Shown here piece by piece: positions 1-5,563 of a DNA stretch of 64,000 nucleotides. The DNA comes from Sphingopyxis sp. YR583 (lineage in GTDB: Bacteria > Pseudomonadota > Alphaproteobacteria > Sphingomonadales > Sphingomonadaceae): assembly GCF_900108295.1 (NCBI RefSeq), contig NZ_FNWK01000002.1:310001-374000 (forward strand). Reading direction: 5' to 3'. The first letter of the stretch is position 1. Each line of letters opens with the position of its first letter. The notes below the pieces were generated by a model. The model was given only the letters and a program-made list of their open reading frames with translations, had not been told where the DNA came from and searched no databases. Both the position numbers and the translations under genes were made by a program.

Positions 1-1288
1 GCCGGACGGTCAGCACATGCCCATCGTTCTGTGGCTCGTCGGCGAGAACCTCGCCGCGCGCGTGAAGCCACGCCGCCGCCTCGCCCTCGCCATAGCCCAG
101 ATAGATGCGCTGCACCTTGTGCTGCGCGGTCAATTGCGACGCCATCAGGACGCGCGCCGCCTCGACGCCCTCGCCCGTCACCGCCGAGATGACCGCGACG
201 TCGGGCCGCCGCGCCGCCACCTCCTCGATCGCCGCGCGCCCGTCGGCGTCGGCCGTGTCGATCTTGTTCCAGATTTCGATCTGCGGAACCGCGGCAGGGG
301 CATCGCCCTCCTCGTCGTCCTGCGGACCGTTAACGCCGAGCGAGTCCAATATGGCCCGCACATCGTCATATTGCGCCTCGCTGTCGGGATGAACGATGTC
401 GCGGACATGGACGATCAGGTCCGCGGTCGTCACTTCCTCGAGCGTTGCGCGGAATGCGGCAACCAATTGCGTCGGCAGATCGGAAACGAAACCGACGGTG
501 TCGGACAGGATCGCCTTTTCGATCCCCGGCAATCCGATTTCGCGCATAGTGGGGTCAAGCGTGGCGAAAAGCATATCTTCCGCCATGACGTCACTCCCCG
601 TCAAGCGATTGAAGAATGTGGATTTTCCGGCGTTGGTATAGCCGACGAGCGCGACGACCGGCCACGGCGCGCGCTGGCGCTTCGATCGCTGGAGCTGGCG
701 CGTACGCCGTGCATCATCGAGGCTCCGGCGGATGCGCGCCATGCGGTTGCGGATCATCCGCCTGTCGGCTTCGATCTGCGTTTCCCCGGGGCCGCCGAGA
801 AAACCGAAACCGCCGCGCTGCCGCTCAAGGTGGGTCCAACTGCGCACGAGCCGCCCTGCCTGATAATCGAGATGCGCCAATTCGACCTGTAACCGCCCTT
901 CGGCAGTCGCGGCGCGCTCTCCGAAAATTTCAAGGATCAGGCCGGTTCGGTCGATGACCTTGGTGCCAAAGGCGGTTTCCAGATTGCGTTGCTGGATCGG
1001 ACTGAGCGCTGCATCGACGACGACAAGCTGGACACCCTTCGCGGCGATGTCGGGCGCGATCGCCTCGATCTGGCCGACGCCGAGTAGGGTCGCCGCGCGG
1101 GTCTGGCGCAGCCGCAGCGTATGAACCGCGACGACATCGAGCCCAATCGCAAGCGCCAGCCCCCTCGCCTCCTCGGCGCGGGCGTCGAGATCGCGGGCAA
1201 GCCGCTGGCTATGCCATTCGGGCACGACAATAAGCGCGGGGGCACCGCGCGTTACCTCGTCTTCATTGTCGGCTATCGGGTCGATCAG
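1..1288 (-). CDS. hflX: GTPase HflX (C-terminus cut by window edge)
   Basis: HflX is a ribosome-associated GTPase that splits stalled or heat-damaged 70S particles. The frame stays open to the window edge, giving about 429 codons. Visible are the HflX-specific [13 protein letters not shown] stretch, the G1 loop GYTNAGKST, a DTVGF G3 motif and an NKID G4 motif. No ATG lies near the N-terminus. The first possible start is a CTG whose last two bases overlap the TGA of hfq, and a GTG follows about 21 codons later, so translation is probably coupled to hfq. Order hfq-hflX is conserved in proteobacteria. Identity is firm; the start is uncertain. Confidence 0.9.
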
Positions 1289-1785
1289 CCGTTGTCCGCT
1301 TCTGCGTCAGGCTCGCTGTCGGTCAGATTGATCGGCCCATTCGGCTGAACGGTCGAAATCGCGTGCTTGTAGACGAGCTGCACCTGCCGCTCGCGCTCGA
1401 GCAGCATGCAGAACAGGTCGAAGGCAACGATATCGCCCTGCAGCATCACGCCATTGACGAGGAACATCGTCACCGACTCGTCGGAACGGCGGACTGCGTT
1501 CAGAAACACGTCCTGCAGGGCCTTGCCCTTGCTCGCTGGCGCATCGCGCAAATTGTCGCCCAATAGCGCGAGATCGAAATCATGCGACGGCATCACCGTC
1601 GAGATCGCATGCTTGTAGACAAGTTGCGACTGTCCATCGCGGCGAAGAAGCAGCGAAAAGTTATCGAACCAGGTGATGATGCCCTGCAGCTTCACGCCCT
1701 TGACCAGAAACATGGTCACCGGGGTCTTGCTCTTGCGAAGGGCGTTTAGGAAAATATCCTGGAGATTCTGATTTTTATCGGACAC
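1285..1785 (-). CDS. hfq: Tandem-domain RNA chaperone Hfq
   Basis: Hfq pairs small RNAs with mRNAs. This 166-residue protein holds two complete Hfq Sm repeats, at about residues 6-66 and 89-148. Each has a QDxFLNA-type helix, an LQG strand and a YKHAISTV ending (residues 57-64 and 139-146), joined by a roughly 20-residue linker. Ordinary Hfq has one repeat in about 80-100 residues. The repeats differ: the GVKLQG lysine of repeat 1 is Met in repeat 2, and the helix-1 rim residues are LRKSK versus VRRSD. If the usual six-fold ring is kept, three chains would build it. The start has an AGGAGG Shine-Dalgarno 5 bases upstream. It follows ntrX and precedes hflX. Confidence 0.96.
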
Positions 1786-1843
1786 ATTTGCCTCCTGTTT
1801 TTGGCGGTATAACCGCGGGTATGGTACCGGTTTTCCGGATTTA

Positions 1844-1890
1844 AGACCTTCTTCGCACCCGCAATATGCGGCAAAGGGCCCCGAAGGTCT
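1844..1890. other. Stem-loop between ntrX and hfq
   Basis: Arms AGACCTTC (1844-1851) and GAAGGTCT (1883-1890) are perfectly complementary and enclose a second small stem, CCGC/GCGG at 1859-1871. It lies just downstream of the ntrX stop and about 60 bases before the hfq start. It could be a weak terminator, a processing site or part of the hfq leader. No U-run follows on either strand, so a simple intrinsic terminator is unlikely. Confidence 0.4.
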
Positions 1891-1902
1891 AGCGCAAAGC
1901 CG

Positions 1903-3282
1903 CTATCCCTCGCCTTCCGAACTCTCGGTAAGGCCCAAAAGTTTCAGTTTGCGGTGCAGCGCCGACCGTTCCATTCCGATGAAGGTCGCGGTGCGCGAGA
2001 TATTGCCCGAAAAACGGTTGATCTGGATACGCAGATACTCGCGCTCGAAATTCTCCCGCGCCTCTTTCAGAGGGATCGCGGTGATCGATTCCGAATTGGG
2101 CAGGATATCGGCCCCGCCGCGCACCAGCTCGGCGGGCAGCATATCAGCATCTATGCGGTTCAACCGGTCGCTCGGCGCAAGGATCATCACACGCTCTATC
2201 ACGTTACGCAGTTCGCGAACATTGCCCGGCCACTCATGTGCCTGGAGTGCCGCCATCGCTTCCGAGCTGATCTCGGGCGGCGGAACGCGGCGGTCGGCGG
2301 CGTAGCGGCGGATATAATGGTCGCAAAGGCTGGCGATATCGTCGCGACGCTCGCGCAGCGGCGGGATATGCACGGGCACGACATTCAGCCGGTAATAGAG
2401 ATCCTCGCGAAACCGGTTTTCCGCGATTTCGGTCATCAGGTCGCGCGCGGATCCCGAAATGATGCGCACATCGACGCGGATCATCGTGCGGCCGCCTACG
2501 CGGGCAAAGCTTTGATCGGTCAGGACGCGCAGGATCTTGCCCTGCGTCGTCAGCGGCATGTCGGCGACCTCGTCGAGGAACAGCGTCCCCCCATGCGCCT
2601 GTTCGAGCAGTCCGACGCGGATCGAACCGTCCTCAGCTTCGGACCCGAACAACTCAGTCTCTACCGTTTCGGGGTCCATCCGTGCCGATGAAATGACGCG
2701 GAACGGTGCATTCTGGCGCCCGCTCCAGCCGTGCAGCACGCGCGCCGCGACCTCCTTGCCGACGCCGGGAGCGCCCGTGATCAGGACGCGGCTTCCCGTC
2801 CCCGCGACGCGCTTCAGCGTCGCGCGGACATTGTTGATAGCCGCACTCGTTCCGGTTAGCTCGTCCGACGGCCCGGCCTTTTCTCGCAGCTGCTCATATT
2901 CGAACTTGAGCCGCTCATTCTCGGTCGCGCGCGCGACGAGATGGAGCAGGCGCGATGCCTCGAACGGCTTTTCGATGAAATCGAACGCGCCGCGGCGGAT
3001 GGCGGCGACCGCCGTATCGAGCCCGCCATGGCCCGAAATGACGATGATCGGCAGCGTCGGATCGAACGCCTTGATCGCCTCGACCAGTCCGAGCCCGTCA
3101 AGCCGCGAGCCCTGCAGCCAGACATCGATCAGCGCGAGCGACGGACGTCGCTGGCGGATCGCTTCGAGCGCGGAATCGCTGTCGGAGGCGGTGCGCGCCT
3201 CATAGCCTTCGTCTTCCATGACGCCGGCGACGAGGTCGCAAATGTCACGTTCGTCGTCGACGATCAAAATATCAAGCGCCAT
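1903..3282 (-). CDS. ntrX: Response regulator NtrX (no GAFTGA loop)
   Basis: NtrX is the response regulator of the NtrY/NtrX pair for nitrogen and redox or envelope signals. The receiver has acidic residues D9-D10 and the phosphoacceptor D53 (LIDVW). An AAA+ domain follows with Walker A GAPGVGKE and a GGTLFLDEVADMP Walker B, then a Fis-type HTH (ERSALHRKLK). Where sigma-54 activators carry GAFTGA after ELFG, this protein reads ELFGSEAEDGSIRVG, so it probably cannot remodel sigma-54 and acts as a conventional DNA-binding regulator. I chose the ATG giving MALDILIVDD (459 aa); the frame extends upstream into ntrY. The gene overlaps the ntrY end. Confidence 0.93.
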   Translation of the reverse strand: MALDILIVDDERDICDLVAGVMEDEGYEARTASDSDSALEAIRQRRPSLALIDVWLQGSRLDGLGLVEAIKAFDPTLPIIVISGHGGLDTAVAAIRRGAFDFIEKPFEASRLLHLVARATENERLKFEYEQLREKAGPSDELTGTSAAINNVRATLKRVAGTGSRVLITGAPGVGKEVAARVLHGWSGRQNAPFRVISSARMDPETVETELFGSEAEDGSIRVGLLEQAHGGTLFLDEVADMPLTTQGKILRVLTDQSFARVGGRTMIRVDVRIISGSARDLMTEIAENRFREDLYYRLNVVPVHIPPLRERRDDIASLCDHYIRRYAADRRVPPPEISSEAMAALQAHEWPGNVRELRNVIERVMILAPSDRLNRIDADMLPAELVRGGADILPNSESITAIPLKEARENFEREYLRIQINRFSGNISRTATFIGMERSALHRKLKLLGLTESSEGEG

Positions 3283-5563
3283 GATCTTCTCTGTCCTGCC
3301 GGTTCCGGATGCGTCCGGGAACCGATTCACTTTGCCCCATCCCCTGTTCGCCGCCCTTGCCGGCCAATGGCCTGAGCCGTTCGGGATGGAGCGTCAGGGT
3401 CACGCATGTCCCCTGCCCCGCCGGATTGTCCGAAAATTCGAGCTCGCCATAATGTTGCTCGACGATCTTCTTCACGATCGCGAGCCCCAGCCCGGTCCCG
3501 CCCTGCCGGGTCGTCATATAGGGTTCGGCGATCGCCTCGCGCGCCTCGGGCAGCCCGATGCCATCGTCGGACACCCGGATGACGAACTCGCCCTCCACGC
3601 CGACAGCAAGTTCGGCGGAGATGTAACCAGTGGCGACGGCATCGGAATTTTTATATTTCTCTTCAATTGCTTCGACTGCGTTTTTGACGATATTGGTGAC
3701 TGCCTGCGACAGCAGTCGGCGGTCGCAAACGAGCGGCTCGATCTCGGCAGGCGTTTTGACGGCAAAGGCGATGTCGGGCTTTGCCACTTCGAACAGGAAC
3801 ACCGCCTGACGCACGATGTCGCGAACGTCCTCTACCCCGAAGGTCGGTTTCGGCATTCGGGCGAAGCTCGAAAATTCATCGACCATACGCCGCATGTCGT
3901 GCACCTGGCGGATTACCGTATCGGTCAGCTTCCGGAAGGTGGCGCTATCGCCCTCGACCTTGTCGCCGAACCGCCGCTGGAGCCGTTCGGCCGCGAGTTG
4001 AATCGGGGTCAGCGGATTCTTGATCTCATGCGCGATGCGCCGCGCGACGTCGGACCAGGCCGCACGGCGCTGATCGAGTAATTGCTGCGTGATATCCTCG
4101 AAGCTCAGGACAAAGCCGTCGCCCTGCGCCACGGCTTTTGCCGCGAGCGTCGCGGGTTCCGCGTCTTTGCGCGAGAGCTGGACGATGGCTTCGCGTTCGT
4201 CGCCGGTCAGCAAGCGCGCAAGTTCGGGCGCGACGTCGTCGAGCGGCTGGCCGGTCAGGCACTCGGCGGACTGGCAGATCAGCCGCTCGGCCGCGGCGTT
4301 GGCGAGCAGAATGCGGCGATCGGCGTCGACCGAAACGACAGCCGATGACACGCCGCTGAGCACGGCCTCGATAAAGCTGCGCCGCGCCTCGAGTTGCTCG
4401 TTCACGCTGACGAGCGCGCCGGTTTGCCCCTGCAATTGCTCGGTCATTCGGTTGAAGGCGCGGGTGAGTACCGAAATCTCGTCATCGCGCGCCGGCGGCG
4501 TGACCCGCACCGACAGGTCGCCTCCGGCGGCAGTCCGCGTTGCACCGATCAGCGTGCCGAGCGGGCGGACGATCCGGTCGGCCACGAGGATTGCCGCTAT
4601 AACGGCGAGCGCGAGAAGCAGAAGCGACCCAAGATAGAGCGCGCCGTTGAATTGAAGCTGGAGCTGCTGCGAGCGTTCGAACAAGCCATTATAGTCGGCG
4701 AGAACTGCACTCGCGCGCGCGGACTGCTGAAAGCCCGGGACATTTGTATCGCGCGAAGCATAGACGTACGCGCGGCCCGTGCCGGGCAGCCGTGCAGCGG
4801 CTTCGATCCGGTTGGGCTGGCGAACGACGACGACATCCTCGCCCGCGTCGAGGCGGCCGACCATCGCGGAACTCAAACGGTTCTCAGCCGCCCTGTTGTC
4901 GGGATTGATCGCCGTGGCCGTCCGCGCCACGCCGTCCCTGCCGATCTCGATAATCGCCGACTCATTCAGGCTCCGAACGACGACCTGTTGCAGATAATAG
5001 TTGCTGAAGACCGGGCTATCGATCGGGACGAGGCTCAATTGCTTGCCGAGGTCGTTTGCCATGGCAAAGGTATTCGCACCGACTTGCCGCTGGTTTTCCT
5101 GGTAATAACCCTCGGCCAGATTGGCGGCGTTTTCGAACATGCCGCGCGAACGATCGGAGAACCAGAAATCGACACCGAACTGGAATAGAAGTGAAGCGAA
5201 GATCACCACGAGCAGGGTCGGCGCTGCGGCAATCAGCGAAAAAAGCGCAACAAGCCGGACGTGGAGGCGGCCGTTGCCGCCCGCCATCGAGCGCACCGCG
5301 CGTGCGCGCGCAACGCGGCTGCCGATAAGCACGATCAGAGCCATCGCTGGCACCAGATTGACGACCATGATCGCGGCGACGAGCGCCGGGGTCAGCAGCC
5401 GCTCGCTCTGCGCATCGCCGGTCACGAAGATATAGGTCGCGATGGCAACGCTGATGATCAGGGCGAGTGTATAATATTCGGGCGCCGCGAAACGCCAGAA
5501 GCCCGAGCGCATCACCTGGTCGTCCGAATCCGTGTGGGTAGCCAGAGGGGACGGGAGCGTCAT
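3272..5563 (-). CDS. ntrY: Sensor histidine kinase NtrY
   Basis: Membrane sensor kinase paired with NtrX. Three hydrophobic segments occupy roughly residues 25-125. An extracytoplasmic domain follows, then a fourth membrane segment near 310, a HAMP linker (VRPLGTLIGATR), a PAS-like domain, a HisKA box with [13 protein letters not shown] and a HATPase domain with DDGIGLP and GGTGLGLAIV. About 763 residues fits the NtrY family. I took the ATG of MTLPSPLATH; an in-frame ATG 13 codons upstream is possible. The end overlaps ntrX by a few bases, so the pair is translationally coupled. It sits directly downstream of ntrC. Confidence 0.93.
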   Translation of the reverse strand: MTLPSPLATHTDSDDQVMRSGFWRFAAPEYYTLALIISVAIATYIFVTGDAQSERLLTPALVAAIMVVNLVPAMALIVLIGSRVARARAVRSMAGGNGRLHVRLVALFSLIAAAPTLLVVIFASLLFQFGVDFWFSDRSRGMFENAANLAEGYYQENQRQVGANTFAMANDLGKQLSLVPIDSPVFSNYYLQQVVVRSLNESAIIEIGRDGVARTATAINPDNRAAENRLSSAMVGRLDAGEDVVVVRQPNRIEAAARLPGTGRAYVYASRDTNVPGFQQSARASAVLADYNGLFERSQQLQLQFNGALYLGSLLLLALAVIAAILVADRIVRPLGTLIGATRTAAGGDLSVRVTPPARDDEISVLTRAFNRMTEQLQGQTGALVSVNEQLEARRSFIEAVLSGVSSAVVSVDADRRILLANAAAERLICQSAECLTGQPLDDVAPELARLLTGDEREAIVQLSRKDAEPATLAAKAVAQGDGFVLSFEDITQQLLDQRRAAWSDVARRIAHEIKNPLTPIQLAAERLQRRFGDKVEGDSATFRKLTDTVIRQVHDMRRMVDEFSSFARMPKPTFGVEDVRDIVRQAVFLFEVAKPDIAFAVKTPAEIEPLVCDRRLLSQAVTNIVKNAVEAIEEKYKNSDAVATGYISAELAVGVEGEFVIRVSDDGIGLPEAREAIAEPYMTTRQGGTGLGLAIVKKIVEQHYGELEFSDNPAGQGTCVTLTLHPERLRPLAGKGGEQGMGQSESVPGRIRNRQDREDHGA

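Follow-up and report, generated by a model that had tools for sequence, protein, structure and literature searches.

The window, a stretch of 64,000 nucleotides of Sphingopyxis sp. YR583 DNA, carries hfq between ntrX and hflX near its start (Table 1). In the translated window the hfq start codon GTG lies at 1785-1783 and the TGA stop codon at 1287-1285 on the minus strand. The open frame of hflX runs as far as the last hfq codon (window 1285-1288, minus strand); the two genes thus abut or overlap and may be coupled. Further upstream are a kinase gene with an NtrY N-terminal domain and dusB, together with a regulator scoring slightly below the ntrC cut-off (552.6 versus 558.6 bits) and a PAS histidine kinase taken as NtrB from its position. 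A scan of window positions 1-2300 found no consensus promoter, and the two terminator-like sites in this segment equal the number found in shuffled sequence. Rfam gave no match within the window. Within the stretch compared across genomes, an NtrX match stands beside hfq in 77/77 tandem loci versus 29/72 single-domain loci.

Table 1. Features of the hfq locus, in window coordinates.
Feature	Position	Strand	Basis
hflX, downstream neighbour of hfq, cut by window start	2..1288	-	TIGR03156 GTPase HflX, 429.7 bits, cut-off 216.75
hfq, RNA chaperone Hfq of 166 aa with two Sm domains in tandem, GTG start	1285..1785	-	Pfam, NCBIfam
Acidic C-terminal tail, residues 151-166	1288..1335	-	Translation, tail charge counts
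Sm domain 2 (D2), residues 87-150	1336..1527	-	Proximal pocket kept
Linker D1-D2, residues 69-86	1528..1581	-	Spacer between domain matches
Sm domain 1 (D1), residues 6-68	1582..1770	-	Canonical alphaproteobacterial Hfq core
Putative ribosome-binding site AGGAGG, 5 nt before hfq GTG	1791..1796	-	Read from sequence
ntrX, upstream neighbour of hfq	1903..3330	-	NF051870 NtrX, 705.4 bits, cut-off 600

The original prediction had read hfq as encoding two complete Sm domains in one chain and one frame, and profile searches bear this out. Pfam Hfq (PF17209) matches the product in two stretches (whole-protein E = 9.5e-57), which score 103.8 and 88.9 bits in the genome profile search against a cut-off of 27 and are therefore not chance matches. 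Residues 1-161 are also matched by the 176-position NCBIfam model NF010691 (RNA chaperone Hfq), with 305.6 bits against a curated cut-off of 270. The repeats are also intact as claimed, with YKHAIST and LQG complete in each half. The nearest named relatives, among the best 80 of at least 594 related stretches, are four Sphingopyxis proteins with 95-98% identity in the best segment.

Residues are given here in E. coli Hfq numbering, anchored on LQD at 7-9 and YKH at 55-57. The proximal uridine pocket of Hfq is formed by Q8, F42, K56 and H57, and each half of the window protein has all four. Distal Y/F25, Q33, Q52 and T61 are likewise present in both; D2 is without Lys31. D1 combines a basic rim (R16, K17, K19; +3) with a derived Lys28. 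D2 carries derived Met31, Leu41, Glu47 and Gln63, and its rim positions 16/17/19 read R, R, D.

Both Hfq matches in the 4.3-Mb assembly (5 contigs) fall in this one frame, and the profile search of that assembly found no further Hfq. A second, ordinary Hfq in the genome, the single-domain protein that the original prediction named as one of its refuting cases, is accordingly rejected. Among 296 sampled genomes of the order, 213 belong to the family of the window, with two Hfq matches in 202 of them and one in 11; a third match was found in none of the 213. The other 83 genomes comprise 76 with one match, six with none and one (G001) with two. These counts uphold the expectation that the tandem form is a lineage trait. 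We read 67 of the 202 two-match genomes as DNA (the window's own plus 28, 14 and 24), the remaining 135 being match counts, and found both domains in one frame in 67/67. Across all tandem loci compared, the two domains share a frame in 115, one of which is cut by a contig end. The family is probably Sphingomonadaceae in the broad sense, judging by the named tandem loci, which include Sphingopyxis, Sphingobium, Sphingomonas, Sphingorhabdus, Novosphingobium, Erythrobacter, Tsuneonella and Blastomonas.

We rejected G001, a member of a second family (f2), as a tandem outside the family of the window, its two matches being a single-domain gene and, apart from it, a frame of 51 codons (L123, L171). 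This partial hfq frame lies on another contig and may be contamination or a fragment. In a class sample of 385 genomes at least 5, and in a phylum sample of 398 at least 17, match NF010691 above its cut-off (the two samples overlap); all of these belong to the family of the window. A true tandem of the family, in G071, falls below this cut-off at 261 bits. Among the matches listed we found no tandem outside the family, where a tandem of independent origin could, like that of G071, score below the NF010691 cut-off.

To place the change to the tandem state we used a tree of the neighbouring HflX, built from 123 of 149 loci (74 tandem and 49 single-domain rows). Left out were loci with short HflX matches (tandem L040, L043 and L081; single-domain L025, L083 and L100) and, by choice, further distant single-domain loci. 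A branch with support 98 sets the 74 tandem rows apart from the single-domain rows, and on this tree the tandem state arose by one change and has one origin. The 11 single-domain genomes of the family (11/11) and two more named single-domain loci fall outside the tandem branch; thus no tandem loss is seen among the 213 family genomes. The tree is to be read with the limits that hflX adjoins hfq and may share its history, that the chosen outgroup does not form one side of a branch, and that part of the deeper branching is open and some branches are long. A tree of the domains themselves (64 columns; 289 rows kept from 302 after 13 cut, near-copy or duplicate rows were dropped) gathers D2 into one clade (94) and requires two changes for D1, with most forks unresolved. 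As all tandems form one clade, the tandem counts given below are not independent events.

The original prediction had also held that the two halves differ in rim and distal residues; this difference is real and is seen across the lineage. We compared 115 tandem loci (108 distinct cores) with 72 single-domain loci (49 distinct). The loci are a non-random set, as two of the searches favoured high scorers, one aimed at g12, the lowest-scoring genus, and one at unsampled genera. Without g12, a fast-evolving genus of 14 tandems, 101 tandem loci (94 distinct cores) remain, and the counts that follow refer to these. Position 28 is Lys in 101/101 D1 and Asn in 101/101 D2 and 72/72 single-domain proteins. 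Position 31 is Lys in 101/101 D1 and 72/72 single-domain proteins and Met in 101/101 D2. Position 63 is Gln in 100/100 readable D2 and Met in 72/72 single-domain proteins and 99/101 D1. No other position has one residue throughout the single-domain proteins and a different one throughout D1 or throughout the readable D2. Of 100 D1 codons read at position 28, 71 are AAG and 29 AAA; the amino acid thus stays constant despite variation in the DNA. The summed charge at 28 and 31 is +2 in D1, 0 in D2 and +1 in single-domain proteins. At position 47 every D1 has Arg, and 83/101 D2 have Glu.

Residues of the RNA-binding faces are otherwise shared. Proximal Q8, Y55, K56 and H57 and distal Q33, Q52 and T61 do not vary across D1, readable D2 and single-domain proteins, and F42 is replaced, by Tyr, in 1/101 D2. 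Mean pairwise identity over 77 loci is 0.727 for D2 versus 0.856 for D1. Among the matches listed in the open-access literature we did not find this fixed partition of residues between D1 and D2, which we read from the sequence comparison.

The rim, tail and linker are partitioned as well. The rim charge at 16/17/19 is +3 in 101/101 D1 and 72/72 single-domain proteins; in D2 the sum runs from -2 to +3 and reaches +3 in 2/101. The tail after D2 has a net charge of -2 or lower in 100/101 tandems, the exception being L081, which is cut by a contig end, and 70/72 single-domain tails have similar charge. The D1-D2 spacer measures 14-22 residues in 77 tandem loci, most commonly 18 (28/77). Over a linker of about 20 residues in the same loci, the start is mildly acidic (mean -1.34) and the end basic (+1.77), per eight residues.

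The pattern is loosened in g12, yet the tandem is retained in all 14 loci. D1 Lys28 is present in 14/14, and D2 position 31 is Met in 7/14, Ala in three, Arg in two, and Leu and Ser in one each. In D1, Arg31 occurs in 9/14, His57 is replaced by Gln in 4/14 and the rim falls below +3 in 6/14. Summed rim charge in D2 lies between 0 and +2 and is on average higher than in the remaining tandems, although the D2 helices are short there and the rim columns unsure. Nine of the 14 tails have at most seven residues and a net charge of -2 to +2. The D1 rim is below +3 in 6/9 of these short-tail tandems, whereas all five tandems with longer acidic tails have a D1 rim of +3. This joint loss of tail and D1 rim, counted among close relatives, fits a pairing of tail with rim. 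The loci L157-L165 (g12, genomes of 2.1-2.6 Mb) have short, weakly charged tails and D1 Arg31, with His57 replaced by Gln in four of the nine; their D2 helix region looks eroded, yet both domains are retained.

An AlphaFold model of the chain (31-row alignment) reached a mean pLDDT of 86.6 and a pTM of 0.82, one of the five models being poor (pLDDT 52.0), and shows a helix and five strands, twice. The 50 listed of 1089 PDB fold matches are all single Hfq domains, with query-normalised TM values of 0.36-0.40 to the chain model. Comparison of the pTM of 0.82 with these single-domain values points to a confident relative placing of D1 and D2; the model thus suggests that the two domains, which are predicted to pack together, do so in a defined way.

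Taken together, these observations indicate that the protein is probably the ordinary Hfq of the organism in the tandem form found in one sphingomonad lineage, three chains of which would build one ring of six Sm domains with D1 and D2 alternating. In such a ring every D2 would have a D1 on both sides, and all six proximal pockets could still hold the U-rich 3' ends of sRNAs. The full annealing-promoting basic rim would be offered by the three D1 subunits only, and the acidic C-terminal tail by D2 only, each tail being flanked by D1 rims, so that tail-rim autoinhibition would act at three sites rather than six. Distally, loss of the lysine at D2 position 31 would be offset by the gain of one at D1 position 28; with charges of +2 and 0, a three-chain ring would therefore keep the +6 of a homo-hexamer, arranged as three pairs. 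The partition in the sequences, with tail on D2, full rim on D1, D1 tail-less and the D2 rim decayed, fits such alternation. We infer the stoichiometry of three chains, the docking of the tail and the effects on RNA from this pattern. The original prediction of a ring with alternating faces calls for refinement: rim and distal charges would alternate, but the proximal face likely remains six-fold because Q8, F42, K56 and H57 are kept in both domains.

Published work on Hfq gives these positions a context. In the available text on Pseudomonas Hfq, the distal R site is common to neighbouring subunits and the Lys31 backbone amide contacts phosphate (PMC6422490). A review, in the part available, describes a water-mediated contact by Asn28 and an annealing rate that increases with rim arginines (PMC10628458). 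In Caulobacter Hfq the acidic tip of an adjacent monomer touches the basic rim (PMC6561178, available text), whose residues correspond to positions 16, 17 and 19 by alignment to PDB 6gwk.

Other explanations cover parts of the pattern. The linker could tie two homo-rings, of six D1 and six D2 domains, into a six-chain double ring, given that sequence and model alike show a complete Sm fold in each domain and that paired Hfq hexamers are seen in crystals. A D2 ring, however, would put the acidic tails beside rims mostly stripped of charge, the rims of a D1 ring would lack a C-terminal tail, and the reciprocal change at 28 and 31 would have no obvious reason unless D1 and D2 were neighbours. On these indirect arguments we regard the double ring as improbable, and the alternating three-chain ring appears to fit better than separate D1 and D2 rings; the spacer of 14-22 residues would be compatible with other packings too. 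An error of sequencing or assembly, or a duplication confined to this genome, has nothing found in its favour and would have to contend with two matches in 202 of 213 genomes of the family and with a one-frame tandem at 115 loci, one of them contig-cut. We give this practically no credence and reject it, the tandem being found across the family.

A different view is that D2 is a slowly decaying copy, retained just to complete the ring, so that its differences from D1 are functionless. The lower identity of D2, its variable rim and the further loss in g12 speak for decay. Outside g12, however, D2 keeps its proximal and distal core residues, and the new Met31 and Gln63 of D2 are fixed, as is the new Lys28 of D1; fixed new residues are not readily produced by relaxed selection. 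We judge simple decay unlikely, while allowing it some weight.

A stronger form of the alternating three-chain ring would make it obligate, with functionally unlike Sm units in alternation, six uridine pockets, three tail-policed rims and three charged plus three uncharged distal repeats, so that A-rich RNA would be bound in a fixed register. We advance this stronger form tentatively, as a possibility. If true, it would be a bacterial step from a homo- to a hetero-Sm ring by way of gene fusion.

The stoichiometry of a homo-hexameric ring is hard to vary, and a natural fused pair makes exactly three of six subunits changeable, so that the number of rims, tails and distal sites required by Hfq becomes accessible to experiment. 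From the fixed partition of residues follow exact predictions, testable in harmless, genetically workable bacteria. The tandem clade with its single-domain sisters dates, to one branch of a tree, the step from an RNA-binding homo-ring to an unequal one. In Sphingopyxis granuli the action of the SuhB sRNA on thnR is Hfq-dependent, according to the available part of a review (PMC6563040). The present genome has one suhB match over cut-off (L211, G000:C1:1599703-1599776), where a hairpin precedes a run of eight T; another match (L212, G000:C2:192778-192858) scores below cut-off. Both lie outside the window.

The tandem architecture itself is already known, as both NF010691 and Yang et al. (2010) attest. 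In the available text, Yang et al. reported two Sm-like domains in the Hfq of Zymomonas mobilis and six other Sphingomonadales, found this form restricted to these Sphingomonadales among the proteins compared there, and raised the question of whether three chains are enough for a ring (PMC2877685). Another paper, in the part available, names Novosphingobium aromaticivorans as one of the bacteria that carry two hfq-like copies, citing its reference 43 (PMC3474761). The available text of a study of hfq and ethanol tolerance in Z. mobilis does not contain the terms 'two Sm', 'trimer' or 'hexamer' (PMC9797736), and in that of PMC10725011 Hfq appears in the reference list only. Among the matches listed in the open-access literature searched, we found no structure, oligomer state or RNA-binding measurement for a tandem Hfq, in keeping with the earlier view that its RNA-binding consequences are little studied.

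The window protein resembles Z. mobilis ZMO0347 and the six other Sphingomonadales proteins in coming from the same order and having the same two Sm-like domains per chain; in its available text the 2010 study compared domain content, and the residue-level comparison of D1 with D2 is that of the present analysis. It is a member of NF010691 (PRK14091), over the cut-off at full length, and we saw no difference from that model. Among solved chains the best sequence match, to D1 residues 2-71, is Caulobacter crescentus Hfq (PDB 6gwk), which shares the basic rim and, in the available description, the acidic tail. It differs in having one Sm domain per chain and in carrying Asn28 with Lys31. Eukaryotic Sm/LSm hetero-rings resemble the proposed ring in setting unlike Sm subunits in a fixed order, but are assembled from separate polypeptides and have seven subunits.
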